Both the position numbers and the translations under genes were made by a program. This document shows, piece after piece, positions 42,955-56,349 of a DNA stretch of 64,000 bases. The stretch lies in assembly GCF_900177545.1 (NCBI RefSeq), contig NZ_FXBQ01000001.1, positions 1,568,122-1,632,121 of the forward strand, written 5' to 3'. Origin of the DNA: Maritimibacter sp. HL-12. GTDB taxonomy: Bacteria; Pseudomonadota; Alphaproteobacteria; Rhodobacterales; Rhodobacteraceae. Every line of letters begins with the position of its first letter. Positions within the stretch are counted from its first letter, which is position 1. Under the pieces are notes generated by a model. It was not told the origin of the DNA, made no database searches, and saw nothing but the letters and a program-made list of their open reading frames with translations.

Positions 42955-43656
42955 TCAGGCTACGTCTTTCAAAGCCCCCTGCGCCGCAGCGCGGATGGCC
43001 CGGATATTCTCGCCGTAAGGGGCCGGGTTGTCTACCGAGCCGCCCTTGAATACCGCCGATCCGGCCACGAAGCAGTCCGCCCCGGCCGCGACCAGCGGAC
43101 CAACCGTGTTGGGGTCGACCCCGCCATCAACCTGGATCATGATTTCGCGGTCGCCGATCATCTCGCGCACCTGGCGCACTTTCTCGACGCTGGTCGGAAT
43201 GAACTTCTGCCCGCCGAACCCGGGGTTCACGCTCATCACCAGCACCATGTCGACGAGGTCGAGAAGTTCGGAGATCACCGCGGCCGGGGTGCCCGGATTG
43301 AGCGAGATACCCGCCATCTTGCCGGTTGCCTTGATCGCCTGCAGCGTGCGGTGCGGGTGCGGCCCGGCCTCCCAGTGGGCGGTGATCATGTCGGCGCCCG
43401 CCTCGGCATAGGCCTCGATATAGGGGTCGACCGGCGCGATCATCAGGTGCACGTCCATGAAGGTGGTCACGTGCGGTCGGAACGCCTTCACCGCGGGCGG
43501 GCCGAAGGTGAGGTTGGGCACGAAATGCCCGTCCATCACGTCGACATGCACCCAGTCGGCGCCCTGCGCCTCGATGGCCCGGATCTCCTCTCCGAAGTTG
43601 GCAAAATCGGCGGAAAGGATCGACGGTGCGATCTTGATGGAACGGTCAAACGACAT
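42955..43656 (-). CDS. rpe: ribulose-phosphate 3-epimerase
   Basis: Rpe (CbbE) interconverts ribulose-5-phosphate and xylulose-5-phosphate in the Calvin cycle and pentose phosphate pathway. The 233-residue TIM barrel has [32 protein letters not shown] (metal-binding His and Asp) and [16 protein letters not shown] precedes the ATG. It follows cbbA after 95 bases that hold a hairpin. In R. sphaeroides form II operons a RuBisCO gene occupies a similar place after cbbA; here it is rpe. Confidence 0.97.
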
Positions 43657-43680
43657 ATCGTGTCTCCCTGTTTTTCACTG

Positions 43681-43705
43681 TCGGGCGGGAGCGTGCCCCG
43701 CCCGA
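43681..43705. repeat. hairpin between cbbA and rpe
   Basis: TCGGGCGGG and CCCGCCCGA form a nine-base GC stem with a seven-base loop. No U-run follows on the minus strand, so it is more likely a message-stabilising or processing element that raises the level of the upstream cbb part than a terminator. Confidence 0.6.
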
Positions 43706-43751
43706 TCCATCTATCATGCAGCCTCGCGCGCGGCCACTGTGCGATACGCGT

Positions 43752-44801
43752 TCAGAGCGAACCGTCGGCGTAGCGCCTGGCCATGTCGTCAAGGTCGATG
43801 GCCTTGATCTTCGAGGCATTGCCGGCGGTGCCGAAGCGCTCGAAACGGTCGATGCAGAGCTTTTTCATCTCTTCCATCGCCGGGATCATGAACTTGCGCG
43901 GGTCGAACTCGGTTTTCTTCTCCATCGCCACCTTGCGGAACTGGCCGGTGATGGCCATCCGGTTATCGGTGTCGATGTTGACCTTGCGCACACCCGACTT
44001 GATGCCGCGCTCGATCTCTTCAACCGGCACGCCGTAAGTTTGCGGCATGTCGCCGCCGAACGCGTTGATCAGGTCTTGCAGATACTGCGGCACGCTCGAC
44101 GAACCGTGCATCACGAGGTGCACATGCGGGATCTTGGCGTGGATCGCCTCGATCTGGCTGATCGCCAGCGTTTCGCCGGTGGGTTTCGAGCTGAACTTGT
44201 AGGCGCCGTGGCTAGTGCCGCAGGCAATGGCCAGCGCGTCGACCTTGGTGAGCTTGACGAAATCCGCCGCCTCGTCCGGGTCGGTGAGAAGCTGGCTGTG
44301 ATCGAGTTTGCCTTCGGCACCCGAGCCGTCTTCCTCGGCGGCCATGCCGGTTTCGAGGTTGCCGAGCACGCCCAGCTCACCCTCGACCGAGGCCCCCACC
44401 CAATGCGCCATCTCGGCCACGCGGCGGGTGATATCGACGTTGTAATCCCAGTCGGCAGGCGTTTTCATGTCGGCCTTGAGCGAGCCGTCCATCATCACGG
44501 AGGTGAAGCCGTGCTTGATCGCGGAGATGCAGGTTTGCTCGTTGTTGCCGTGGTCCTGGTGCATCACGATCGGAATGTCGGGATACATCTCGGTGAGCGC
44601 CTGGATCATGTGCTTGAGCATGATGTCGCCGGCATAGGACCGGGCACCGCGCGAGGCCTGGAGGATAACCGGGCTATCCACCTTCTTGGCCGCGTTCATG
44701 ATCGCGAGGCCCTGTTCCATGTTGTTGATGTTGAAAGCCGGCACGCCATAGGAATGTTCGGCGGCGTGATCGAGCAGTTGGCGAAGTGAGATAAGTGCCA
44801 T
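43752..44801 (-). CDS. cbbA: fructose-bisphosphate aldolase class II (Calvin cycle type)
   Basis: The 349-residue zinc aldolase has [11 protein letters not shown] with a metal His, [12 protein letters not shown] and [15 protein letters not shown] with the other metal and substrate residues, and [16 protein letters not shown] near the C-terminus. The sequence type ([27 protein letters not shown]) matches the Calvin-cycle subtype that also handles sedoheptulose bisphosphate. It follows cbbG after 12 bases. Confidence 0.97.
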
Positions 44802-44813
44802 GTGTCAGGTTCC

Positions 44814-45815
44814 TCAGATCAGCTTGCCCATGGCGACAGCGGTGTCGGCCATGCGGTTGGAGAAGCCCCATTCGTTGTCGTACCAGCTCAGGATGCGCAC
44901 GAAGTTGCCGTCCATCACCTTGGTCTGGTCCATGTGGAAGGTCGACGAATGCGGATCGTGGTTGAAGTCGATCGAAACGTTGGCCTCGTCGGTGTAGCCG
45001 AGAATGCCCTTCATCGGGCCATCGGCGGCGGCGCGGATCGCGTTGTTGATCTCTTCCACACTGGTGGCCCGACTGGCTTCGAAGGTCAGGTCGACAACCG
45101 AGACGTTCGGCGTCGGCACCCGGATCGCCACGCCGTCGAGCTTGCCGTTGAGCTCGGGAAGCACGAGGCCCACGGCCTTGGCCGCGCCGGTGCTCGTCGG
45201 GATCATGCTCATCGCCGCCGCGCGGGCGCGGTAGAGATCGGAGTGCATGGTGTCGAGCGTCGGCTGATCGCCGGTGTAGGAGTGGATCGTGGTCATGAAA
45301 CCGCGGGTAATCCCCACCGTGTCTTGCAGCACCTTGGCCACCGGCGAGAGGCAGTTGGTGGTGCAGGAGGCGTTCGACACCACCAGATCGTCGGCGGTGA
45401 GCGTATCGTGGTTCACGCCGAACACGATGGTCTTGTCGGCACCGCTTGCCGGCGCCGAGACCAGAACCCGCTTCGAGCCGTTTTCGAGGTGGAATGCGGC
45501 CTTGTCGCGCGCGGTGAAGATGCCGGTGCATTCCAGCGCGATATCGACATCGCCCCACGGCAGTTCCTTGGGGTCGCGGATCGCGGTCACCTTGATCGGG
45601 CCGCGGCCCACGTCGATGGTGTCGCCGTCCACCGTGACGGTGCCGGGAAAACGCCCGTGCACCGAGTCGTAGCGGATGAGGTGGGCGTTGGTTTCCACCG
45701 GCCCGAGATCGTTGATCGCGACCACCTCGATATCGGTGCGGCCGGATTCGACGATGGCACGCAGCACATTGCGGCCGATACGGCCGAAGCCGTTGATAGC
45801 TACCTTGACAGTCAT
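44814..45815 (-). CDS. cbbG: glyceraldehyde-3-phosphate dehydrogenase (cbbG)
   Basis: The 333-residue GAPDH has the Rossmann start [14 protein letters not shown], the catalytic Cys151 in [12 protein letters not shown], and a following STGAAKAVG phosphate-binding segment. AGGAGGTAAC precedes ATG 45815; a longer in-frame start eight codons earlier is less likely. Its place between transketolase and aldolase in a cbb operon shows it is the Calvin-cycle copy, working in the reducing direction. Confidence 0.97.
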
Positions 45816-45831
45816 GTTACCTCCTGGGACG

Positions 45832-47823
45832 TCAGACAAGTGATTTGGCGGCGGCCACGACAGCCTCTGCCGTGATGCCGAAATGTTCGTAGAGCGCCGG
45901 GGCCGGGGCGGACGCCCCGAAGCTGGTCATGCCGACAAAGGCACCGTCATTGCCGATCAGCGCATCCCATCCCTGCCGCACCGCCGCTTCCACGCCAACG
46001 CGGGGCGCGGTGCCGAGCACGGCGTCGCGGTAGGCCCGCGGTTGCTTGGCGAAGGCCTCGAAGCAGGGGGCCGAAACCACTACCGCCTTGACCCCGTCCG
46101 CCGCCAGTTTCTCGGCGGCGTTTATGGCGATCTCCACCTCCGAGCCGGTGGCGACGATGGTCACGTCGCGGGTGCCGGCCACGTCGCGGAGCACATAGGC
46201 ACCCTTGGCGGTCATGTTGGTGTCGGTATGGCTGGTGCGCACCGTGGGCAGGCCCTGGCGCGAGAGCGAAAGCACGCTGGGCGTGCCTTCCATCTCCAGC
46301 GCCGCCTGCCAGGCTTCGGCGGTTTCCACCGCGTCGGCAGGGCGGAACACCATCATGTTCGGCATCGCGCGCAGGCTGGCGAGCGTTTCCACCGGCTGGT
46401 GCGTCGGCCCGTCCTCGCCAAGCCCGATGCTGTCATGGGTCAGCACGTAGACCACCCGCAGACCCATCAGCGCCGAAAGCCGCATCGCGCCGCGCATGTA
46501 ATCGGCGAACACGAGGAAAGTGCCGCCATAGGGGATGAACCCGCCGTGCAGCGCGATCCCGTTCATGATCGCCGCCATGCCGTGCTCGCGCACGCCGTAA
46601 CGCACGTAGTTGCCGGAGTAATCACCGCGCACCACGTCTTTCATGCCCTTGGTGTAGGTCAGGTTGGAGCCGGTCAAGTCGGCCGATCCGCCCACCGTGT
46701 TGGGCAGCGTGCCGTTGACGATCTCCAGCGCCATCTCGCTGGCCTTGCGGGTGGCGACCTTGGGCGCATCCGCGCTGAGCCGGGCTTTGTAGGCATTGAA
46801 CGCGGCGTCGAGCGCGCGGGCGTCAGGATTCGCCTGCGCGGCTTCGAAGGCATCCTGCTTCGGATGCCCGCCAAGGCGCTTTTCCCACGCCAGCCGGGCC
46901 TCGCGGCCACGGGCGGCAATCGCGTGGAACGCGTCATAAACCTCGCCTGGCACCTCGAAGGGCGCATGCAACCAGCCAAGGTTCTCCCGCACGGCGGCCA
47001 CTTCGTCGGCACCCAGCGGCGCACCGTGCACGTCGTGGCTGCCCTGCTTGTTGGGTGCGCCAAAGCCGATCACGGTGCGGCAGGCGATCATCGAAGGCTT
47101 GTCGGTCACGCCACGAGCCGCTTCGATCGCGGCGGCAATCGCCTCCTTGTCGTGCCCGTCGATCGACTGCACGTGCCAGCCCGCCGCCTCGAACCGGGCC
47201 TGCTGGCTCGTCGAGGTGGAAACATCGGTCGAACCGTCGATCGTGATCTGGTTGTCGTCCCACATCAGGATGAGGCGGCCAAGCCCATGATGTCCCGCAA
47301 AATCAATGGCTTCGTGGCTGATTCCTTCCATCAGGCAGCCGTCGCCCGAGATCACGTAAGTGTAGTGATCCGCGAGGTCGTCGCCGTAGCGCGCATTTGC
47401 CATGCGTTCGGCCAGCGCCATGCCTACGGCGGTGGTGATGCCCTGTCCGAGCGGCCCGGTGGTCACCTCGATGCCCTTGGCATGGCCATATTCCGGGTGT
47501 CCGGCGGTGCGATAGCCCATCTGCCGGAAGTTGCGGATCTGCTCCATCCCCATGTCATCATAGCCGAGCAGGTGGTTGATCGCGTAGACCAGCATCGAGC
47601 CATGGCCCGCGCTCATCACGAAGCGGTCGCGATCGGCCCAGGTGTCGGCCGAGGGGTCGATCTTCATGAACCGGTTGAACAGCACCGTGGCAACATCCGC
47701 GAGGCCCATCGGCGCGCCGGGGTGGCCCGAGTTGGCGGCCTGCACCGCGTCCATCGCCAGCGCCCGGATGGCATTGGCCATCAGGTCTTCGGTCGATGTG
47801 TCGATATTCGTCTGAATGTTCAT
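45832..47823 (-). CDS. cbbT: transketolase (cbbT)
   Basis: The 663-residue thiamine-diphosphate enzyme has the TPP motif [13 protein letters not shown] (about 158), catalytic His in SGHPGAPMG and [17 protein letters not shown], and the C-terminal domain. It moves two-carbon units between sugar phosphates. It lies ten bases after the phosphoribulokinase gene. Full length and motifs are intact. Confidence 0.98.
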
Positions 47824-47833
47824 GGCACCCTCC

Positions 47834-48706
47834 TCAAGCGCGCTTCGAGACCGACACCAGCCGCTCGATCATCGGGGTGAAGATGAGCTGCATCGCGAGG
47901 TCCATCTTGCCGCCGGGAATGACGATGGAATTGGCCCGGCTCATCCAGCTGCCCTGGATCATCCGGGTGAGATAGCCAAAGTCGATTCCGCGCGGGTTCT
48001 TGAAGCGGATCACCACGAGGCTTTCGTCGGCGGTGGGAATCCAGCGGGCGATGAAGGGGTTCGACGTATCCACAATCGGAACGCGCTGGAAGTTGATGTC
48101 GGTTTCGGTGAACTGCGGCGTGATGCAGTGAACATAATCGTGCATCCGGCGCAGGATCACGTCGGTGACAGCTTCGGTCGAATAGCCGCGATGGGTCTTG
48201 TCGCGGTGGATCTTCTGGATCCATTCGAGGTTGATCACCGGTACCACACCGATCTTGAGATCGGCCAGCGCCGGGAGGTTCACTTCGTCGTTGACCACCG
48301 CACCGTGCAGCCCCTCGTAGAACAACACGTCCGAATCGTCGTCGAAGGGCGCCCAATCGGTGAAGTTGCCGGGCGCGACGCCGAATTTCTCCGCCTCGAT
48401 ATCGTCATGCACGTAGTGCCGGGTACGGCCCTTGCCGGTCTCGCCATACTCGCGAAACACCCTTTCGAGCTCGTCGAGTGCGTTGGCTTCGTAGGAGAAG
48501 TGGCTGAAGGTATGGTCACCTTCGGCAGTGCGCCGTTCCAGCTCCGCCTTCATTTCCAGGCGATTATATCTGTGAAAGGCATCGCCCTCGATCGAAACCG
48601 CCTTCACGCCCTCGCGGCGGAAGATCTGATCGAAGGTGCCTTTGACGGTTGATGTGCCGGCCCCCGAGGAGCCCGTGACCGAGATGATGGGGTGTTTTTT
48701 GCTCAT
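47834..48706 (-). CDS. cbbP: phosphoribulokinase
   Basis: PRK makes ribulose-1,5-bisphosphate, the RuBisCO substrate, and is diagnostic for the Calvin cycle. The 290-residue protein has the Walker [10 protein letters not shown] near 12-20, [21 protein letters not shown] with the catalytic acid region, and [12 protein letters not shown]. It is of the octameric bacterial type (class I). It follows cbbF after nine bases. Its presence makes the lack of a RuBisCO gene in the operon notable. Confidence 0.98.
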
Positions 48707-48715
48707 GATATGTCC

Positions 48716-49726
48716 TCAGACGCGGAACAGGCCGCGAGTTCCGAAAAGGGCGTTGACTTCATCGGTCGGCAGATCCTGGTAGGCGGCAACGCGCGCCACC
48801 TTGTCGGAACTTCCGAAGACGAAGGGCGTGCGGGCGTGCAATTCGCTCGCCTGCTGCGACATGATCCGGTCATGCCCATCGGTGGCGCGCCCGCCGGCCT
48901 GTTCGATCAGGAAGGCGATCGGGGCGCATTCATAGACCATCCGCAAACGGCCGCGTTCGTATCCTGTCCGATCATCGCCGGGATAGAGAAAGATCCCGCC
49001 ACGGCTCATGATCCGGTGCGTCTCTGCCACCAGCGAGGCCACCCAGCGCATGTTGAAGTTCTCGTCGCGCGGCCCGGTTTCACCTGCGAGCATGTCGTCG
49101 ATGTAGGCCCGGATCGCCGGGCTCCAGTGCCGGTAGTTCGAGGCGTTGATCGCAAATTCGCGGGCTTTCACCGGCACCTTGTGCTCGGTTTCGACCAGTT
49201 TCCAGATCATGCTGTCGGGGTCGAAGATATAGCTCTGAACCCCGTTTCCGAAGGTTACGACGATATAGGTCTGCGGCCCGTAGATGATGTAGCCGCCGCA
49301 AATCTGCTCGTCGGCCGGGCGCAGGAAGGTGCCGTTCGGGTCGCCGTCCTTGGCCTCGAAGATCGAGAAGATCGTGCCGATCGACACGTTCACGTCGATG
49401 TTGGAAGACCCGTCCAGCGGGTCGATGGCGAGGCCGAAGCGGCCTTCCGGATTCAACTCGACGACAAAATCCTGCTCCTCGGACGCATAGTAGCGCACCG
49501 AGGTTTTCTTCAGCTCTTCGGCGAAGGCATCGTCGGCCATCACGTCGAGAGCCTTCTGCTGGTCGCCGCCAAGGTTTTCGCCCACGCCGGCACCAAGCGA
49601 GCCACCCAGCGGCCCCCGCTTGATCGTTCGGCACAGATCGCGGCCGACAAGGCCGAGCGCCTCCATTATCGGCCGAAGGTCAGCCGGAATGTGAGACGTA
49701 TCGTCAAAGACATCCGTGGTGCTCAT
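48716..49726 (-). CDS. cbbF: fructose-1,6-bisphosphatase class I (cbbF)
   Basis: The 336-residue enzyme dephosphorylates fructose-1,6-bisphosphate (and sedoheptulose bisphosphate in autotrophs). It has the metal motif [10 protein letters not shown] at 102-111, [11 protein letters not shown] before it, and [18 protein letters not shown] near the C-terminus. GGAGGA precedes the ATG at 49726. It is the first gene of the operon, divergent from cbbR. Confidence 0.97.
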
Positions 49727-49831
49727 GATTCCTCCCAAGTCCGGCCTCCAAACCGGATTGTCCTTGTCGTGCCACGGTTGAATCGTTTACAGAATTTAAT
49801 AAGTAGAAAGTTATGAAAAGAAAAATCTAAG
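49727..49831. promoter_or_regulatory. cbbR-cbbF divergent regulatory region
   Basis: This 105-base region is AT-rich on the cbbR side. TAA-N8-TTA at 49800-49813 matches the published CbbR half-site consensus TNA-N7/8-TNA and sits in the inverted repeat ATAA-N8-TTAT (49799-49814), 18 bases before cbbR. A second inverted repeat, TCCGG-N8-CCGGA, lies at 49740-49757 close to cbbF. CbbR would bind here to activate cbbF and repress itself. Confidence 0.65.
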
Positions 49832-50755
49832 ATGCGCCGACCAGACGCCATTACTCTCAAGCAATTACGGGCACTTAGTGCAGTTGCCGCGCATGGCTCG
49901 ATCACCAAGGCGGCTGAGGCAATTCGCCTCACGCCGCCGGCTGTTCACACCCAGCTCAAACAGCTTTCCGAGAACATGCACGCCGAGATGCTGCGCCGGG
50001 GGCCATCCGCCAAGATGGAGCTGACGCCGGAAGGCGAAGTGGTGTTGCAGACGATTCGGCGTATCGAGGTCGAGCTTGATGCCTGCATGCGTTCGGTGGC
50101 CGAACTGCGCGACGGGCGCTCCGGTTTTGTTCAGCTTGGCGTGGTCTCGACGGGCAAGTATTTCGCCCCGGGTCTCGTCGCCACCCTCAAGCGCGAATTC
50201 CCTGAAATCAGGATAGACCTCGTGGTTGGCAACCGCGAGCAGACCATCGCGGCGCTCGAATCGCGGCAGATCCAGCTTGCCATCATGGGCCGTCCGCCGC
50301 GCGTTCCGGCCAACAGCTCTGTGCTGATCGGCCCGCATCCGCATGTGCTGATCGCGCCCCCCGACCACCGCCTTTCCGGAAAGGCGCGGATCGACCCGGA
50401 GGAGCTGCTGGAAGAGACCTTCATCGCCCGCGAAGAGGGCTCGGGCACGCGCATCCTGATGACCCGGTTTCTGGATCGCATCGGCGACGGGCGCACCTAC
50501 GACATGATCACGATGAGCTCCAACGAAACCATCAAGCAGGCGGTCATTGCGGGGCTTGGAGTTGCGCTGATTTCGCAGCACACGGTCGTTGAAGAGTTGC
50601 ATTCCGGCCGGATCGTGAAGCTCGATCTGCCCGGCCTGCCGATCGAGCGCGCGTGGTATCTGCTCAACCGCGAAGACACCCCGCTCACCCCCGCCGCCGA
50701 GCGGATCCGGGCGCATGTTTCGCAGATGGATGGCAGCTTCCTGCCGCAGCTTTAA
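49832..50755 (+). CDS. cbbR: LysR-type regulator CbbR
   Basis: The 307-residue LysR regulator has an N-terminal helix-turn-helix (LKQLRALSAVAAHGSITKAAEAIRLTPPAVHTQLKQL) and an effector domain with the GSGTRI segment near 204 that binds metabolites. Its position divergent from cbbF, and MSSNETIKQAVIAGLGVALIS in the effector domain, mark it as the Calvin-cycle regulator. Its stop overlaps the stop of the cytochrome gene by three bases, tail to tail. Confidence 0.95.
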   Translation: MRRPDAITLKQLRALSAVAAHGSITKAAEAIRLTPPAVHTQLKQLSENMHAEMLRRGPSAKMELTPEGEVVLQTIRRIEVELDACMRSVAELRDGRSGFVQLGVVSTGKYFAPGLVATLKREFPEIRIDLVVGNREQTIAALESRQIQLAIMGRPPRVPANSSVLIGPHPHVLIAPPDHRLSGKARIDPEELLEETFIAREEGSGTRILMTRFLDRIGDGRTYDMITMSSNETIKQAVIAGLGVALISQHTVVEELHSGRIVKLDLPGLPIERAWYLLNREDTPLTPAAERIRAHVSQMDGSFLPQL

Positions 50756-51399
50756 TCGGTGGAATAATAGCGCCAGAGCGCGAGGAATTGCGTCTCGGTC
50801 AACGGGTTTTGAAACCCGATGGTCGCGTCGCCCTTTACCCCGACATAGAGCCGGGCGGCGAAGATATCCGCCGGTTCCTCGCGCGCCATCCCGAACAGGT
50901 CGCGGATGGGAAGTTTCATGCCGGGATCGCCTTCGCCGGTATCGTCATGGCAGCCGGCGCAATAGGTCTCATGGATCGCGCGGGCGTCGAGCAACGCTTT
51001 TGCGCTGACGTCCGCCGTGCCTTGTTCGAGCAGATCGAACGGATGTCGGCCGATCAGGGAATCGAGCGCCCCGGCGAGGTCGTCGGGATCGTCCCTGCGG
51101 TCGGCCGCGAGCCGGTCGGCACCCGCCTCGTCCCCGGATTGGATCAGCAGCCACGGCACCAACCCCAGCGATCCGGTCACCCGCGCCTCCAGCCCTTCGC
51201 GATGGGCCTCGGGCAAACCGTTTTCGCGCAGCCTCGCAAGATCACCCTGCAAAACGCGCAGTTCAGCCGCCAGTGTTCGATCGGCGCGCGCCACCGGTGT
51301 TTCGGCCAGAGCCACGCCAACCGAGGCAATGCAGATGGCCGCAACGCCCATCGACGTTGCGGCCAGCCTTGTTTGCATGGTGCGGCGCAGAAGCGCCAT
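50752..51399 (-). CDS. periplasmic c-type cytochrome
   Basis: The 215-residue protein has a signal peptide (hydrophobic 14-31, cleavage near ALAET) and a single haem c site CAGCH at 147-151. A helical region (about 40-130) precedes the class I-like haem domain; candidate axial methionines follow in GMKLP or FGMAR. It is the last gene of the sulfur operon, directly after the periplasmic rhodanese. It may accept electrons from sulfane-sulfur oxidation. It shows no match to SoxX or SoxA that I can support. Confidence 0.85.
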   Translation of the reverse strand: MALLRRTMQTRLAATSMGVAAICIASVGVALAETPVARADRTLAAELRVLQGDLARLRENGLPEAHREGLEARVTGSLGLVPWLLIQSGDEAGADRLAADRRDDPDDLAGALDSLIGRHPFDLLEQGTADVSAKALLDARAIHETYCAGCHDDTGEGDPGMKLPIRDLFGMAREEPADIFAARLYVGVKGDATIGFQNPLTETQFLALWRYYSTD

Positions 51400-51417: not shown

Positions 51418-52365
51418 TCAGTTGACGGAGATCCGGGATTCCATCGGCATGTTCTTGGCGGTCCAGTCCACCATCGAGCCATCATACATCACGGCCTGCT
51501 TGTTGCCGAGAAGTTCCGATGACACGAACCAGCCCACCGAGGCCCAGTGCCCGGTGTTGCAGAAGTTCACCTGGTCGCCGGACGTCGGCACACCCGCCGC
51601 GTCGTAGAGCTTGGCGAGGGTCTCGGAATCGCGGAACATGCCGCCCGCGTTGTCGGTCATCCAGGTGTTGGGCAGGTTGACCGCGCCGGGGATCGTGCCG
51701 GCCATCTTCGCCGGTCCGGCCTTGTTCACGCCAAGATACTGGTCGGCCGGGCGGTGATCGACAAGCATGCTGCCGCTGTCGCTCAGGCTCTGAACGTCAT
51801 CGGCGTCGATCAGCATGTCTTCGCGCAGGGCAACGGTGAACGACTTGGCGTCTGCCTCGACGTTGCCCTTGTCGAGCGGGTTGACCGGGTTCTTGTCGCC
51901 GTCGACCTCGGAAAGATAGGCCGCCATGCCGCCGTTCAGGATCGAGACCTCGTCATGCCCGAGCACCTTGAAGGTCCAGTACATCCGGGTTGCCGTGCCC
52001 ATGTCGGAAGAACTCGTCCCGTTGGCGACCAGCACCACGTGGGAATTGTTGTCGATTCCGAGGCTGCCGATATGTGCCGCGAGCGCGCTGGTGTCTTCCG
52101 GCAGATAGCCGGGCACCTTGTCGATCGCCACGCGCCAGCCTGACTTGCCGTAGTCGGTGTTCACCGCACCCGGAATATGCCCGCGCAGATAATCGGTCTT
52201 GCCGCGCGCATCGACAAACACCACACCTTCGTTGCCGATGTTTGCCTTGACCCAGTCGACATCGACCAACGGATCGGCCGCCAGTGCCGGCCCCGCGATA
52301 CCGGCGATCACCATGATCGCCACCGAGGCCATAACGGCCCGGATCCTGTTCACTATCGTTTTCAT
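51418..52365 (-). CDS. periplasmic two-domain rhodanese (thiosulfate sulfurtransferase type)
   Basis: The 315-residue protein has a signal peptide (ending PALAAD), an N-terminal rhodanese domain (VFVDARGKTDYLRGHIPGAVN) that is inactive, and a C-terminal domain (LVDHRPADQYLG) with the catalytic Cys269 in NFCNTGHWAS. Such enzymes move sulfane sulfur from thiosulfate or persulfides to acceptors. GGAGGA precedes ATG 52365. It lies 19 bases upstream of the cytochrome gene and after the three small DsrE-like genes. Confidence 0.9.
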   Translation of the reverse strand: MKTIVNRIRAVMASVAIMVIAGIAGPALAADPLVDVDWVKANIGNEGVVFVDARGKTDYLRGHIPGAVNTDYGKSGWRVAIDKVPGYLPEDTSALAAHIGSLGIDNNSHVVLVANGTSSSDMGTATRMYWTFKVLGHDEVSILNGGMAAYLSEVDGDKNPVNPLDKGNVEADAKSFTVALREDMLIDADDVQSLSDSGSMLVDHRPADQYLGVNKAGPAKMAGTIPGAVNLPNTWMTDNAGGMFRDSETLAKLYDAAGVPTSGDQVNFCNTGHWASVGWFVSSELLGNKQAVMYDGSMVDWTAKNMPMESRISVN

Positions 52366-52405: not shown

Positions 52406-52594
52406 TCAAAGCGTCACGACCATGTCGGCCGAAAGTACCGCCTCGGCCACCTTGGCCCAGGTTTGCGCGTCGTCCGGCGCAAGGCCGGAAACATCGTGGC
52501 GCTCGATATCGTGCGCCGTCTCGTTCTGCGCGACCGCTTCGGCCACGCGCTCGGCGTCGGGAAACAACCCGGTCTTCAACTCGACGATCTTCAT
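52406..52594 (-). CDS. small DsrE-like protein (62 aa), no cysteine
   Basis: The 62-residue product starts MKIVELKTGLFPDAERVAEAV and ends LSADMVVTL. It has no Cys. The end resembles those of the two small proteins upstream (ADRVVNI and AGRVISL), so it is probably a shortened member of the same fold, perhaps a third subunit. GGGAGG lies before the ATG. The position between the 92-aa protein and the rhodanese, with short spacers, supports translation as part of the operon. Confidence 0.65.
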   Translation of the reverse strand: MKIVELKTGLFPDAERVAEAVAQNETAHDIERHDVSGLAPDDAQTWAKVAEAVLSADMVVTL

Positions 52595-52607: not shown

Positions 52608-52886
52608 TCAGATGTTCACCACGCGGTCGGCGGCGGTCATCGCCTTCGCCAGCGCGGCGGTGTCGAGAAACGGCAGATCATCGGCCATTTCCGCAACCGT
52701 GGTTTCGGGTTCGATGTCCGACAGCTCCAGGAGTTCCGCCTGTTCGGCATTCTCCTCGGTGTCGGCCACCGGCTCGGTCATGAAAACCAGACGCACCTCA
52801 TGGCCGAAGATCGTGAGCCCCGCGGCAACGCGCATCGCTTCGGTGTGATTGCGCCGACCGAGCACGAGGATGTTTTTCGTGTCCAT
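52608..52886 (-). CDS. DsrE-like protein (92 aa), no cysteine
   Basis: The 92-residue protein has a Rossmann-like beta-alpha start (KNILVLGRRNHTEAMRVAAGLTIFGHEVRLVFMTEPV) and ends in AALAKAMTAADRVVNI, as in DsrE/TusD-type folds. It contains no Cys, so it cannot itself carry sulfur and may be a structural partner in a hetero-oligomer like DsrEFH. GAGGAGA precedes the ATG. Confidence 0.75.
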   Translation of the reverse strand: MDTKNILVLGRRNHTEAMRVAAGLTIFGHEVRLVFMTEPVADTEENAEQAELLELSDIEPETTVAEMADDLPFLDTAALAKAMTAADRVVNI

Positions 52887-52896
52887 GCCTGTCTCC

Positions 52897-53187
52897 TCAA
52901 AGCGAAATCACGCGCCCGGCCTCGGCCATGAGCGCGGAATTGACGGTCTGGCTGCCGCGTTCGACGGGGCAATCCAGCCCGGCCATGTGCAGGTCCCAGG
53001 AATGTTCGCAGACTGCAACGCGGGCGGCATTCTTGCTCGCGACGGCGAAGGCCGGATCTACCAGCGCCTTCACCCCGTCATTGGTCAGGAAGCAACCCCA
53101 GCTCGCCCCCTGCTCGGAGAGCGCGCGGCCAAGCGAAGCGCCGATCCTGGCGGCGTCGGGCGAGGTGATATGAAGAAGCACATCCAT
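52897..53187 (-). CDS. DsrE family protein (96 aa) with three cysteines
   Basis: The 96-residue protein has a DsrE-type fold start (MDVLLHITSPDAARIGASLGRAL) and a conserved-looking C-terminal end (AEAGRVISL). Cysteines are at 32 (WGCFLTND), 60 (AVCEHSWD) and 73 (LDCPVERG); Cys60 or 73 could be the sulfur-binding residue, as DsrE uses one Cys. It is the only one of the three small DsrE-like proteins with Cys. It follows the degenerate rhodanese gene on the same strand after 20 bases. Confidence 0.82.
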   Translation of the reverse strand: MDVLLHITSPDAARIGASLGRALSEQGASWGCFLTNDGVKALVDPAFAVASKNAARVAVCEHSWDLHMAGLDCPVERGSQTVNSALMAEAGRVISL

Positions 53188-53207: not shown

Positions 53208-53798
53208 TCATGTGTCCGGCCCGTAGCTGACCAGTTCGGTGCGGCCCTGCGCAAACTCCGCAAGGGCACCAACCGTCGGCCCCGAACCACTTTCGTCCAA
53301 ACTCATCGCGGCCAACCGAATTGGTGCGACAAACACGTTCTCGCGGCTGAAGGCGCGGGGCCAGCCGTTGCGGCCGGTTTCGGCCGGGCCGTCGAGCACG
53401 GCCACCTCTGCCTGACCGGCAAGATGGATCAGCGCCGCCACCGCCCAGGCTTCCTGCGAAGGGCTGTCGCTCCCGTCGTAGATCACCAGGGTTTCGCGCC
53501 CGGTGAGCCCGACCGTGCCGAGAAGCCAACGCAGTGGCGAAAACCCGATCACCCGGCCGGTTCCATCATCGAGAAACCATTGGGCGGGCAGGCAGCGCGC
53601 GTCGGGCAGGGAGCCCGCGAGGCAATCGGCCTCCGCGCGGATGTCGAGCACCGCGACGGTATCGGATTGCGGCATGGTGCCGATGCGCGCGACCGGGTTG
53701 GCACCTGCCTCGCCCGGCACGCCGAGGGCCAGCGCAGCCATCACGGCAGGGCCGGCGACGCCGGTGATCCCCCCGAGAAATGGCCGCGCAGATCCCAT
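53208..53798 (-). CDS. periplasmic rhodanese-like protein, probably inactive
   Basis: The 196-residue protein has an N-terminal signal-like hydrophobic segment (GGITGVAGPAVMAALALGVPGEA) and a rhodanese-like domain (about 45-150; VAVLDIRAEADCLAGSLPDARCLP, ETLVIYDGSDSPSQEAWAVAALIHLAG, VAVLDGPAETGRNGWP). The pattern matches the non-catalytic domain of two-domain rhodaneses and there is no Cys in the active-site loop. It may be a docking partner of the active rhodanese. I chose ATG 53798, next to the stop of the Gly-Gly-Cys protein gene. Confidence 0.75.
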   Translation of the reverse strand: MGSARPFLGGITGVAGPAVMAALALGVPGEAGANPVARIGTMPQSDTVAVLDIRAEADCLAGSLPDARCLPAQWFLDDGTGRVIGFSPLRWLLGTVGLTGRETLVIYDGSDSPSQEAWAVAALIHLAGQAEVAVLDGPAETGRNGWPRAFSRENVFVAPIRLAAMSLDESGSGPTVGALAEFAQGRTELVSYGPDT

Positions 53799-53799
53799 C

Positions 53800-54072
53800 T
53801 CAGCAGCCCCCGAACTTGATTTCGGGCGCGGCCGCCGCACCGGCTTCCGGCGGCGCGGGCGGGTTCTCGATGTAGTAGTCCATCAATTCGGTCGCGGGCA
53901 ATTCGCCGAAGCCGCCGCCCACGTCGATCATCGGCATCAATTCTGCCGGTTGCGCGGTATTCGCTTGCGCGATGGTTTCCTCGTCGAGCGCGGCAAGCGG
54001 ATAGGCGATCCAGGCCAGTCCGAGGCAAACGATCACGCTTGCCGCGCAAAAGATGAAGCTGCTGCGGTCCAT
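53800..54072 (-). CDS. membrane-anchored protein ending in Gly-Gly-Cys
   Basis: The 90-residue protein has one N-terminal membrane segment (about 6-28, FIFCAASVIVCLGLAWIAYPLA), a polar periplasmic part with ELPATELMDYYIENPP, an Ala/Pro/Gly-rich linker, and a C-terminus KFGGC, where Cys90 is the last residue. SoxY carries sulfur on a Cys in a C-terminal GGCGG swinging arm, so a terminal GGC on a flexible tail is a plausible sulfur-carrying arm. No SoxY domain is present, so this is similarity of the tail only. I do not recognise a family. Confidence 0.75.
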   Translation of the reverse strand: MDRSSFIFCAASVIVCLGLAWIAYPLAALDEETIAQANTAQPAELMPMIDVGGGFGELPATELMDYYIENPPAPPEAGAAAAPEIKFGGC

Positions 54073-54083
54073 GTCGTCCCTCC

Positions 54084-54170
54084 TCAGAGCGTATCCTTGA
54101 GAAAACTCAGATACATCGCGCCAAAGGCGATCACGCCGATGATGATCTGTGCGCCGGTTTCAAAATCCAT
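54084..54170 (-). CDS. tiny membrane protein, 28 aa
   Basis: A 28-codon frame (ATG 54168-54170, stop 54084-54086) encodes a peptide beginning MDFETG with a single hydrophobic segment (about 7-24) and ending LKDTL. GGAGAC lies six bases before the ATG. It fits exactly between the 69-aa membrane protein and the Gly-Gly-Cys protein, with ten bases on each side or less, so it belongs to the operon. It may assist a membrane complex, like other very small bitopic subunits. Confidence 0.65.
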   Translation of the reverse strand: MDFETGAQIIIGVIAFGAMYLSFLKDTL

Positions 54171-54180
54171 GATCGTCTCC

Positions 54181-54390
54181 TCAATCGCCGCGATAATGGC
54201 GGATCAGTTCGTTCACGCTTACGCCCTCGCCGGTGATCGGATGCTCGACCTCGGGGGTGAAATGCGGAACCCCGTCACGGTCTGTCCGCAGGCTCTGGGG
54301 CGGGCTCACGAACGTGTAGGCAATGCCGACAACGATGATCGCGAGTCCGGTCCAGGCATAAATGTGCATCAGGATGCGGGATGCGCTCAT
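54181..54390 (-). CDS. small membrane protein, 69 aa
   Basis: The 69-residue protein has one membrane segment (about 8-28, MHIYAWTGLAIIVVGIAYTFV) and a polar tail (SPPQSLRTDRDGVPHFTPEVEH, then HYRGD). The start at 54390 follows GAAGGA; a longer frame adds only an Arg-rich stretch. It sits between the TusA-like gene and the 28-aa gene. No family is recognised; probably a bitopic subunit of the sulfur system. Confidence 0.7.
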   Translation of the reverse strand: MSASRILMHIYAWTGLAIIVVGIAYTFVSPPQSLRTDRDGVPHFTPEVEHPITGEGVSVNELIRHYRGD

Positions 54391-54394
54391 GGTT

Positions 54395-54700
54395 TCAGTC
54401 CTTCTGGATGTAGACTTTCCAGCAGCGCGGCTCCTGGATCGTCTCAAGGTGCCTTGCGCCCATCTCGTCGCAGAGCGGCGGCAGCGCCTCGACCGACGAG
54501 GGATTGTCGAGCACCACTTCCACCACGTTGCCGGACCCGACCTGCCCGACGGCCTTCTTGGTCATCAGTTGCGGCCGAGGGCAGCTGTCACCGAGGCAAT
54601 CGACGCTTTGCGCGATCGAAATCACCGTGCCGTTGCTCAGCGTGGCTTCGCCCACGGAGCCGGCGCTTGCCGCTTCCTTCTTCTTTCCGAAAAGTCCCAT
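54395..54700 (-). CDS. TusA family sulfur carrier-like protein
   Basis: The 101-residue protein has the TusA signature CLGDSCPRPQLMTKKAV (CPxP motif, Cys40 the persulfide-forming residue; a second Cys at 35) and a TusA-like fold around it. The N-terminal 30 residues (MGLFGKKKEAASAG) extend the usual length. TusA proteins carry sulfane sulfur in the cytoplasm between sulfurtransferases. Two ATGs are adjacent; I chose the second because AGGAGG is then five bases away. It is directly downstream of the YeeE/YedE halves, a frequent pairing. Confidence 0.88.
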   Translation of the reverse strand: MGLFGKKKEAASAGSVGEATLSNGTVISIAQSVDCLGDSCPRPQLMTKKAVGQVGSGNVVEVVLDNPSSVEALPPLCDEMGARHLETIQEPRCWKVYIQKD

Positions 54701-54728
54701 CATGTCCTCCTGTCGAAACGTCCGCGCG

Positions 54729-55361
54729 TCATTCGGCGGGTTGTGCTGTTGCGGATTTGGCCTGCGCCATGCGGTGGCTCTCGGCCTGGCCGGCCTCCTT
54801 GCGCAGAATGGCCTTGTAGATGAGGTAGAGCACGCCGGCCTGGATCAGCCCGAAGAAGATGGCCGGTATGCCGAACTTCTCCTGAAGCGTCGCCGCGTTG
54901 GCGTAGCCCAGTTGCAGGGCTTCGAGGTTGGGCTCGCCGGTCATCGAGGCGGGCGCGGGCGGCCAGTAGTTCGCCGACCACACCAGCGAGAACAGGAACA
55001 TGCCCACGAAGGTGAAGATCAGCGCCCAGAGCGCGCCGACGTTGCCCTCGCCGGTCTTGACCCAGGTGGAAACCGTGCAGGCACCCGCGAGCACCATGCC
55101 GACGCCGAAGATGAAGAGCCCGGCAAAGGTGTTGAGGCCAACGTCGAAATACATCGGGTTGCCCTCGCCGAAGGTGATAAACGTAGTAAATCCGATCGTC
55201 AGGATCATCATCGCGACCAGCAGCGCCTTGGTGTTGCGATAGGTTTTGAACAGCATCGCGTCACGCAGCGCGGCGGTGTTGCAGAAGCGCGAGCGCTGCA
55301 CCAGAACACCGACGACGGAGCCGAAGATAAATGCGACAAGGCAAAGTCCGATAGCGCTCAT
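54729..55361 (-). CDS. YeeE/YedE family transporter, half 2
   Basis: The 210-residue membrane protein has about five helices and the YeeE/YedE motifs SRFCNTAALRD near 24 and VLAGACTVSTW near 90. In the thiosulfate transporter TsuA, conserved Cys residues in such motifs guide thiosulfate through the membrane. The length is about half to two-thirds of full TsuA-type proteins, and the adjacent gene supplies the other half. The start MSAIGLCLVAFIFGSV is typical. Confidence 0.88.
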   Translation of the reverse strand: MSAIGLCLVAFIFGSVVGVLVQRSRFCNTAALRDAMLFKTYRNTKALLVAMMILTIGFTTFITFGEGNPMYFDVGLNTFAGLFIFGVGMVLAGACTVSTWVKTGEGNVGALWALIFTFVGMFLFSLVWSANYWPPAPASMTGEPNLEALQLGYANAATLQEKFGIPAIFFGLIQAGVLYLIYKAILRKEAGQAESHRMAQAKSATAQPAE

Positions 55362-55364
55362 GGG

Positions 55365-55862
55365 TCAGCCCTCCAGTATTTTCTTGTAGATCATCGAGCC
55401 GACCCAGGCGCCGGCGATGATGCCGCTGATCGCGAGGTAGCCGCCCATGTTCATCTCGGGGCCCATGCCGAAGAAGGTCGACACGTTGCACACGAAGGCG
55501 AGGCGGATGCCGATGCCCATCAGCAACCCGCCGATGGTGATCATCACCCATTCCGACATCCGGCGCGGGAAGCGGATGTAGAACTCCTTGGCGATCACCG
55601 CGCTCACGAAGGCGCCAAACAGCATGCCGAGGCTGATGTAGATCTTCCAGTAGGTCGGATCGGGCTCGAACACGAGGTTCCAGAACGGCAGCCGCTTGAG
55701 ATCGTCGCCCATGAAGCCCTGCGCGATCAGGCCGGTCATCATGGTTTCGCCGCCGCCGACCGTCCATGCGCCGACGATCACGAACAGAAAGATATCCATG
55801 ACCGCGATGGCCACGAGGGCGATCACCGGGTCGAGGGTTTTTTTGAAGAATTCACTGGCCAA
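55365..55862 (-). CDS. YeeE/YedE family transporter, half 1
   Basis: The 165-residue membrane protein has about four to five helices and the motif GIRLAFVCNVSTFFG near 122, with the Cys matching those in YeeE/YedE transporters. It is the first gene of the sulfur operon and lies three bases before half 2, so the two are translated together and likely form one pore. The start is TTG at 55862 with GGGAGGA five bases upstream; no ATG is in the right place. Thiosulfate or another small sulfane-sulfur compound is the likely cargo. Confidence 0.85.
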   Translation of the reverse strand: MASEFFKKTLDPVIALVAIAVMDIFLFVIVGAWTVGGGETMMTGLIAQGFMGDDLKRLPFWNLVFEPDPTYWKIYISLGMLFGAFVSAVIAKEFYIRFPRRMSEWVMITIGGLLMGIGIRLAFVCNVSTFFGMGPEMNMGGYLAISGIIAGAWVGSMIYKKILEG

Positions 55863-56043: not shown

Positions 56044-56349
56044 TTGTCGATTTATGTTGAGATAGAGCCGGAAGATTTCCTCGGTCACATGTTCAACGCC
56101 TGTTCGATCGACCAGGTGAGCGAATTTCGCCCCGAAAAGCGCGGTTTTCGCATCTATGGCCACAGCACCACGATTCGCCTCGAGCGTGTTTTCTGGACGG
56201 TGCTGGAAGACATGTCGGACCGGATGGGCGTGACCCTTCCGCAACTGATCTGCCGCATCCACGATCAATGCCTGGTGGCGAACGACAAGAACATCGCCTC
56301 CTGCCTGCGCGTCATCTGCATGAAATACATGAACATCTACGCGCTCTGA
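56044..56349 (+). CDS. ribbon-helix-helix regulator of the sulfur operon (RHH_4 type)
   Basis: The 101-residue protein has a ribbon-helix-helix of the PF13467 type (STTIRLERVFWTVLEDMSDRMGVTLPQLICRIHDQC, residues 42-77). Four Cys residues are present (20, 70, 77 and 87), so a thiol- or metal-dependent response is conceivable. The start is TTG at 56044 with GGAGGAGG seven bases upstream. It is divergent from the sulfur operon, and its end overlaps the end of dnaE2 by 13 bases. Local regulation of the sulfur operon is inference. Confidence 0.8.
   Translation: MSIYVEIEPEDFLGHMFNACSIDQVSEFRPEKRGFRIYGHSTTIRLERVFWTVLEDMSDRMGVTLPQLICRIHDQCLVANDKNIASCLRVICMKYMNIYAL

Follow-up and report, generated by a model that had tools for sequence, protein, structure and literature searches.

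A membrane protein with an invariant Gly-Gly-Cys end in a sulfur-transfer operon, a candidate cysteine arm for sulfur import

The window, by which we mean the whole stretch of 64,000 nucleotides of Maritimibacter sp. HL-12 DNA that was analysed, contains a twelve-gene operon in the order yeeA, yeeB, tusA, a gene for a 69-aa protein, a gene for a 28-aa peptide, the gene for a protein that ends in Gly-Gly-Cys (the GGC protein), a pseudo-rhodanese gene, DsrE-, DsrF- and DsrH-like genes, a two-domain rhodanese gene and a cytochrome gene. The positions of these genes and of a divergent neighbour are given in Table 1. A cluster of Calvin-cycle genes at 42955-49738 (FBPase, phosphoribulokinase, transketolase, GAPDH, aldolase and ribulose-phosphate epimerase), accompanied by a LysR regulator at 49832-50755, directly adjoins the sulfur operon, a setting that fits a lithoautotroph.

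Table 1. Genes and features of the sulfur operon, with positions in the window
Feature	Position	Strand	Support
GGC-tailed single-span membrane protein, 90 aa	53800..54072	-	20/20 homologues end GGC; one hydrophobic segment
Ala/Pro/Gly-rich linker and invariant GGC end, codons of residues 73-90	53803..53856	-	
YeeE C-terminal half (YeeA, PmpA-like), invariant Cys125 equivalent to TsuA Cys293	55365..55862	-	PF04143
YeeE N-terminal half (YeeB, PmpB-like), invariant Cys7, Cys27 and Cys95	54729..55361	-	PF04143
TusA sulfurtransferase, invariant Cys41	54395..54703	-	PF01206, E=2.3e-17
69-aa single-span membrane protein, ends LIRHYRGD, no conserved Cys	54181..54390	-	
28-aa single-span peptide (MDFETGAQ...FLKDTL)	54084..54170	-	
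Pseudo-rhodanese (rhodC), N-terminal hydrophobic stretch, without catalytic Cys, invariant Cys59 and Cys69	53208..53798	-	
DsrE-like protein, invariant Cys60 and Cys73	52897..53187	-	Gene order, size and Cys pattern; PF02635 at E=0.2 only
DsrF-like (Chp1-like) protein, no conserved Cys	52608..52886	-	Weak local match to the genome's own DsrF
DsrH-like (Chp2-like) protein, no conserved Cys	52406..52594	-	Named by order and size only
Two-domain rhodanese, N-terminal hydrophobic stretch, CNTGHWAS loop in C-terminal domain	51418..52365	-	PF00581, E=2.6e-26
c-type cytochrome (CxxCH), N-terminal hydrophobic stretch	50752..51399	-	PF13442, E=0.014, below cut-off
Divergent ribbon-helix-helix protein, candidate regulator	56044..56349	+	PF13467, E=1.1e-20

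The GGC protein is encoded by a frame of 90 codons that begins with ATG and ends AAAAPEIKFGGC; the last residues of the product are EIKFGGC. A Shine-Dalgarno-like GGAGGG is found 5 bases 5' of the ATG. The gene starts 11 bases after the end of the 28-aa gene, and its stop is separated by one base from the next gene. A single hydrophobic segment occupies residues 5-23, and the linker at residues 73-85 is rich in Ala, Pro and Gly. The original prediction described a membrane protein that carries a terminal Gly-Gly-Cys behind an Ala/Pro/Gly-rich linker and has no SoxY domain, and this description was borne out: the frame, the segment and the IKFGGC end were all seen, and a search of Pfam and NCBIfam (up to E=0.1), SoxY models included, returned no family match. 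When 9 of 20 homologues were compared with Pfam up to E=1, the sole match was a weak one to DUF6715 (E=0.47). Among PDB sequences no match was convincing, the best chain having E=0.12. An AlphaFold model built with six sequences in the alignment was weak (mean pLDDT 63, pTM 0.28); it has a helix of membrane length at residues 3-28, and pLDDT falls below 50 at residues 77-82 and 84-90. Cleavage by signal peptidase after A27/A28 was considered and judged, by eye, to be unlikely. The GGC and 69-aa proteins share motifs that look alike by eye only (G.GF...EL..YY and G..VSVNELI.HY), and paralogy between them was rejected: the profile score was reached by 353, 874 and 790 of 1000 column shuffles at lengths of 14, 18 and 20, respectively, and hhalign gave a probability of 0.4%.

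A scan of genome contigs returned five relatives of the GGC protein, from two Marimonas, a Sinisalibacter, a Rhodobacteraceae MAG and a MAG labelled Notoacmeibacter. The protein was found in 4 of 100 related genomes (the window's own counted) and in 6 of 394 genomes of the window's family, two of these being weak matches (G256 and G050) that were dismissed as chance because yeeA was absent beyond four carriers in the 394 genomes. Across two draws of 394 family genomes, strong GGC matches and yeeA matches coincided in a single set of 4 genomes. The loci L010, L011, L012 and L013 belong to genomes G421, G116, G004 and G005, and each genome was counted once. Among 398 genomes of the phylum, yeeA matched in the window's own, in G923 at 77% identity (the one further close relative) and, in long frames at 26-33% identity, in six others. 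G923 belongs to another family and has the whole operon, including a GGC protein that is 45% identical to the window's and ends KRFGGC. The GGC protein was recovered from 7 of 81 genomes of that family, and 9 of 120 genomes of the order gave a match. Two of the nine (G923 and G1052) repeat the family search; a third, in G1132, was rejected as chance as its 6.5 kb contig end (L080) carries no further operon gene; and G1191 has a copy of the operon (L081) in which the GGC and tusA frames are apparently broken, through decay or an assembly error. The 69-aa protein, sought in 289 genomes of the class, was found in the window's own and, weakly, in G568 (E=0.0018, with an internal stop).

A tblastn search of plasmids with the GGC protein gave four records up to E=10, none of which spanned 80% of the query, and all were taken as chance. 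Two were Halomonas records (E=0.3 and 5) of DsbC-like proteins among plasmid genes without a sulfur operon, and the others came from Streptomyces and Kitasatospora (E=3 and 10). Plasmids contained no match to yeeA, two weak matches to the 69-aa protein (E=5 and 7), two distant matches to TusA, and rhodaneses in 246 records, all below 60% identity. On viral contigs neither the GGC protein nor yeeA had a relative.

Twenty distinct intact homologues were aligned, 8 from the window's group (the window, L009-L013, L027 and L029) and 12 from a second group (L054 and L069-L079); the frame-broken copy at L081, which also ends KRFGGC, was left out. Gly-Gly-Cys is the C-terminal end of all 20. Loss of the tail in orthologues, which the original prediction had named as grounds for abandoning it, was thus seen in none of them. 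The columns A27, A28, G56, L63, Y66, P71, P72, G88, G89 and C90 are identical in every sequence, and pairwise identities range from 27 to 90% (median 46%). No cysteine other than Cys90 is invariant; Cys9, which lies in the membrane segment, is shared by 18 of the 20. Between P72 and the last five residues lies a linker of 12-14 residues, on average 71% Ala, Pro or Gly. Both tail glycines use all four synonymous codons, and the cysteine is encoded by TGC and TGT (19 of the 20 sequences, L069 being omitted), which indicates that the tail residues, not the DNA, are under conservation. The GGC tail is more than a chance ending.

The flank of the membrane segment (residues 26-44) is less positive than the N-terminal end in 20 of 20 GGC proteins, a bias that would put the C-terminus in the periplasm. 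When the count also takes in residue 25, an Arg or Lys in several members of the second group, the flanks of L077 and L079 become equal, not favourable. Judged from charge bias alone, the arm is likely to be periplasmic. At one and the same threshold, 17 of 19 distal rhodaneses and 16 of 18 cytochromes have a hydrophobic stretch at the N-terminus, compared with only 9 of 20 pseudo-rhodaneses, and because the rhodanese and the cytochrome begin with this export-like stretch, part of the operon acts outside the cytoplasm. Both observations weigh against an arm on the cytoplasmic side, where its partners would be TusA and the DsrE/F/H-like proteins and it would be nearer to the arm of DsrC than to that of SoxY. 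The C-terminal arm of DsrC is mobile and reactive, and the protein is soluble and cytoplasmic. Like DsrC/TusE, the GGC protein has Gly-Cys at or near the chain end, and the likeness extends to the same genome, whose DsrC ends KPTGCV; some second-group GGC proteins are, moreover, positive on both sides of the membrane segment. The GGC protein has no match to the DsrC family in Pfam or NCBIfam. On the whole we regard a cytoplasmic arm as highly improbable.

The gene order of the operon is the same in both carrier groups, the contigs of L009 and L029 stopping before the last operon genes. In 17 of 20 loci the ribbon-helix-helix gene lies beside the operon in divergent orientation; L077, L078 and L079 showed none. 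The gene for the 28-aa peptide, although far under the usual limits of annotation, has a counterpart in all 20 loci, in 18 by search and in the other two (L078 and L079) by reading. The names of the DsrE/F/H-like proteins rest mainly on order, size and cysteine pattern, with little support from sequence: compared by hhalign with the genome's own DsrEFH, the DsrF-like protein reached a probability of 35% (against DsrF) and the DsrE-like protein 4.5%, and the DsrH-like protein gave no match.

In the 20 loci the 69-aa, 28-aa and GGC proteins form a row of three small single-span proteins beside a split transporter. Such an arrangement could mean that all three are accessory or assembly subunits of YeeAB, the tail plugging or gating the channel and Cys90, close to the channel cysteines, acting as gate or sensor. 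PmpA and PmpB, described likewise as a split YeeE, are without the central helix that the full-length protein has (PMC11582611). The window's YeeB, on the other hand, already has five hydrophobic segments. Assembly alone also fails to explain the invariant terminal cysteine, because neither the 69-aa nor the 28-aa protein conserves a cysteine. We consider this role quite unlikely.

Other conserved cysteines lie along the operon. Those kept in 20 of 20 include C27 and C95 of YeeB, C125 of YeeA, C41 of TusA, and C60 and C73 of the DsrE-like protein. YeeB aligns with residues 6-119 of TsuA, its Cys27 and Cys95 falling on Cys22 and Cys91, and residues 68-158 of YeeA align with TsuA 236-326, with Cys125 on Cys293. 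The two proteins thus resemble PmpA/PmpB and TsuA/SoxT in being PF04143 halves with TsuA-equivalent cysteines (those of Cys91 and Cys293 among them). They differ from PmpA/PmpB, which are of about 130 aa, in their length (165 and 210 aa) and in the further small membrane proteins that accompany them.

The GGC gene was originally predicted to encode a carrier that has two rhodaneses as neighbours. It is indeed flanked by two rhodanese-like genes, but the nearer one lacks the catalytic cysteine, and the unit is larger, an operon of twelve genes. The nearer protein scores 20.5 bits against a PF00581 cut-off of 22.2 (E=6.6e-4), and its active-site loop is without cysteine in 20 of 20 aligned sequences, all of which keep Cys59 and Cys69. 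Seven of the 12 second-group versions run to 309-318 residues, and 6 of these 7 have a hydrophobic stretch near the C-terminus. A structure model (pLDDT 52) resembles rhodaneses such as YnjE, matches that are only suggestive because the model is of low confidence. The two-domain rhodanese keeps its C-terminal active-site cysteine, Cys269, in 19 of 19 sequences (the contig of L009 being without that gene), and its N-terminal domain has no such cysteine.

The pair of cysteines retained by the pseudo-rhodanese in the absence of an active-site cysteine would suit a redox role for Cys90. In that case the GGC protein would be a partner in disulfide exchange, not a carrier, and would either form a mixed disulfide with Cys59 or Cys69 or resolve disulfides or persulfides of SoxYZ, on the pattern of the DsbA-like and SoxS proteins proposed beside SoxT transporters. 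A proposal of this kind, with periplasmic thiol-disulfide proteins that free sulfur from SoxYZ and pass it to the transporter, is made in PMC11582611. A single invariant cysteine (Cys9, kept in 18 of 20, is within the membrane) is more to be expected of a carrier than of a disulfide reductase, however, and the thioredoxin family was not matched by the GGC protein in Pfam or NCBIfam or by 9 homologues in Pfam. We therefore judge a redox partner unlikely.

The presence of the operon is associated with dsrA, which was found in 17 of 18 carriers compared to 19 of 79 non-carriers (Fisher p=3e-8). The association holds within the window's family (5 of 5 carriers, 6 of 30 non-carriers, p=0.0014) and within the second family (7 of 7 and 13 of 49, respectively, p=0.0003); none of these p values is corrected for relatedness. 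Matches to dsrA were accepted up to E=1e-40; 16 carriers were over the cut-off, and in G1034 the gene is in two pieces on two contigs. The non-carriers were picked from genomes without a GGC match (the 100 relatives and the family of G923), and G1191, a carrier, was excluded from them. G1191, with its broken frames, was the sole carrier without dsrA among the 18 tested. Two dsrA-positive non-carriers of the window's genus, G002 and G003, are incomplete genomes and may be missing the operon for that reason. The link to dsrA makes the Dsr pathway the likely destination of the sulfur.

The dsr cluster of the window's genome is on contig C2 (1461000-1480900, L100) and has canonical DsrE, DsrF, DsrH and DsrC in a genome of Rhodobacteraceae type. 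In nine consecutive ORFs, dsrA, dsrB, DsrE/TusD, DsrF/TusC, DsrH/TusB, a DsrC-family protein and DsrK exceeded their cut-offs; DsrM was a best match below cut-off, and the last ORF, a large NAD(P)-binding protein, was read as DsrL. Since canonical DsrE, DsrF and DsrH are present in the genome, the DsrE/F/H-like set of the operon may serve another route.

The genome also has an ordinary SoxY, which ends TIGGCGG and is encoded apart from the operon in a soxXYZAB cluster (L097) where SoxX, SoxY (TIGR04488), SoxZ, SoxA and SoxB all exceeded their cut-offs; none of the ten ORFs scanned there was named SoxC or SoxD. SoxY was present in 8 of 10 tested genomes of the window's group, the two without it being G001 (83% complete, a non-carrier) and G006 (73% complete, a carrier), and in 13 of 13 second-group carriers. 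As 9 of 12 non-carriers of one family have SoxY too, its co-occurrence was dropped as discriminating evidence.

SoxY is an exported soluble protein. The GGC protein shares with it (PF13501, TIGR04488) a Gly-Gly-Cys at the C-terminal end and a sulfur-oxidation setting. SoxY frames end VKVT[IV]GGCGG in 17 of 20 loci, the other three having no match to the pattern, and the VRIGGC end of two GGC homologues from family f250 comes close to this. The differences are that the GGC protein has no SoxY domain, that its cysteine is the last residue and not inside GGCGG, that it has a membrane anchor, and that its operon is without soxZ. With no SoxY domain, no GGCGG end and no place in a sox cluster, it is not classed here as SoxY. 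It occurs besides true SoxY, not instead of it, and with a true SoxY in the same genome it is no stand-in for that protein. The idea of a SoxY-like arm (for the swinging arm of SoxY see PMC5336275) survives in narrower form: the invariant tail, the low pLDDT of the chain end and the sulfur-transfer operon agree with it, and working in the manner of a SoxY arm is the best reading by analogy. The term "convergent" is a fair guess, the lack of a domain match being no proof. Overall, the original prediction is partly supported.

Loci that combine YeeE, TusA and DsrE with two or three small conserved proteins have been described under the name YTD cluster and, in recent work, as DsrEFH type II (PMC13047784, PMC13293266, PMC12998232). 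The operon resembles these in uniting a YeeE-type transporter, TusA, a DsrE-like protein and two small proteins in one operon, so that yeeE/yedE, tusA, dsrE-like and small-protein genes occur together, the DsrE/F/H-like members being recognised by order, size and cysteine pattern. Within that trio the DsrE-like protein alone keeps cysteines. It differs in that the transporter is split and in the addition of the GGC protein, two small membrane proteins, the pseudo-rhodanese, an export-type rhodanese and a cytochrome. Published type II genomes carry reductive dsrAB in 73.9% of cases and the oxidative type in 4.7% (PMC13293266), whereas the window's genome has companions of oxidative type, soxXYZAB and a canonical DsrEFH of its own. 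The core of such loci in Pseudomonadota is not new, since type II subtype 1 is reported from that phylum as well (21% of the subtype; PMC13293266). By gene content the operon is related to the published YTD cluster but more elaborate. A literature search, with supplementary files and most subscription journals outside its scope, found no GGC-ended membrane protein in a YTD-type locus.

Because the tip is kept in every intact copy examined, always in the same operon and in distantly related bacteria, the GGC protein is probably a flexible arm that hands on sulfur. On balance we lean towards a cysteine arm, anchored in the membrane and exposed to the periplasm, that brings sulfane sulfur to the YeeAB importer, which in turn feeds TusA and Dsr. 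The N-terminus would span the inner membrane once. The conserved block (G56, L63, Y66, P71 and P72) would dock to a partner, which is most likely either the split YeeE channel or the adjoining pseudo-rhodanese, and the linker of 12-14 residues would bear the terminal Gly-Gly-Cys. Cys90, in the periplasm, would take up sulfane sulfur as a persulfide, from Cys269 of the rhodanese, from SoxYZ or from polysulfide, and would offer it at the opening of YeeAB, whose cysteines correspond to the three in TsuA, a thiosulfate channel. Within the cell, Cys41 of TusA would accept the sulfur, and the DsrE/F/H-like proteins would pass it to DsrC and DsrAB. We infer the periplasmic side, the docking, the partners, the sulfur loading of Cys90 and the direction of flow; as a terminal cysteine, Cys90 might just as well act in redox chemistry or serve the structure.

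The Discussion of PMC11582611 leaves open the route by which sulfur reaches the transporter. The operon is a candidate for this poorly understood import step in bacteria that have Sox plus Dsr, and if the membrane-tethered carrier is real it would join the short list of protein arms that carry sulfur. A wider proposal, to which we give slightly less than an even chance, is that the GGC protein, tethered to the membrane beside the split YeeE channel and without relation to SoxY, represents a second class of periplasmic arm for carrying sulfur. It would belong to a continuous cysteine relay that takes sulfane sulfur out of the periplasm, through the cysteines of the channel, TusA and then the DsrE/F/H-like proteins, to oxidative Dsr. 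Such a relay would constitute an importer module for bacteria that pair Sox with Dsr.

Two other SoxY-related observations were made in the course of this work. About 15 kb from the operon of Marimonas arenosa there is a second SoxY match (L098), near what appear by eye to be genes for hydrogenase subunits; the pattern search recorded no GGC-ended frame there (L039). In connection with the protein encoded at 8825-9247 of L097, NCBIfam includes models related to SoxY whose arm motifs differ, namely an "AACIE arm protein" and a quinoprotein-dehydrogenase-associated SoxYZ-like carrier, which shows again that the tips of carrier arms vary.
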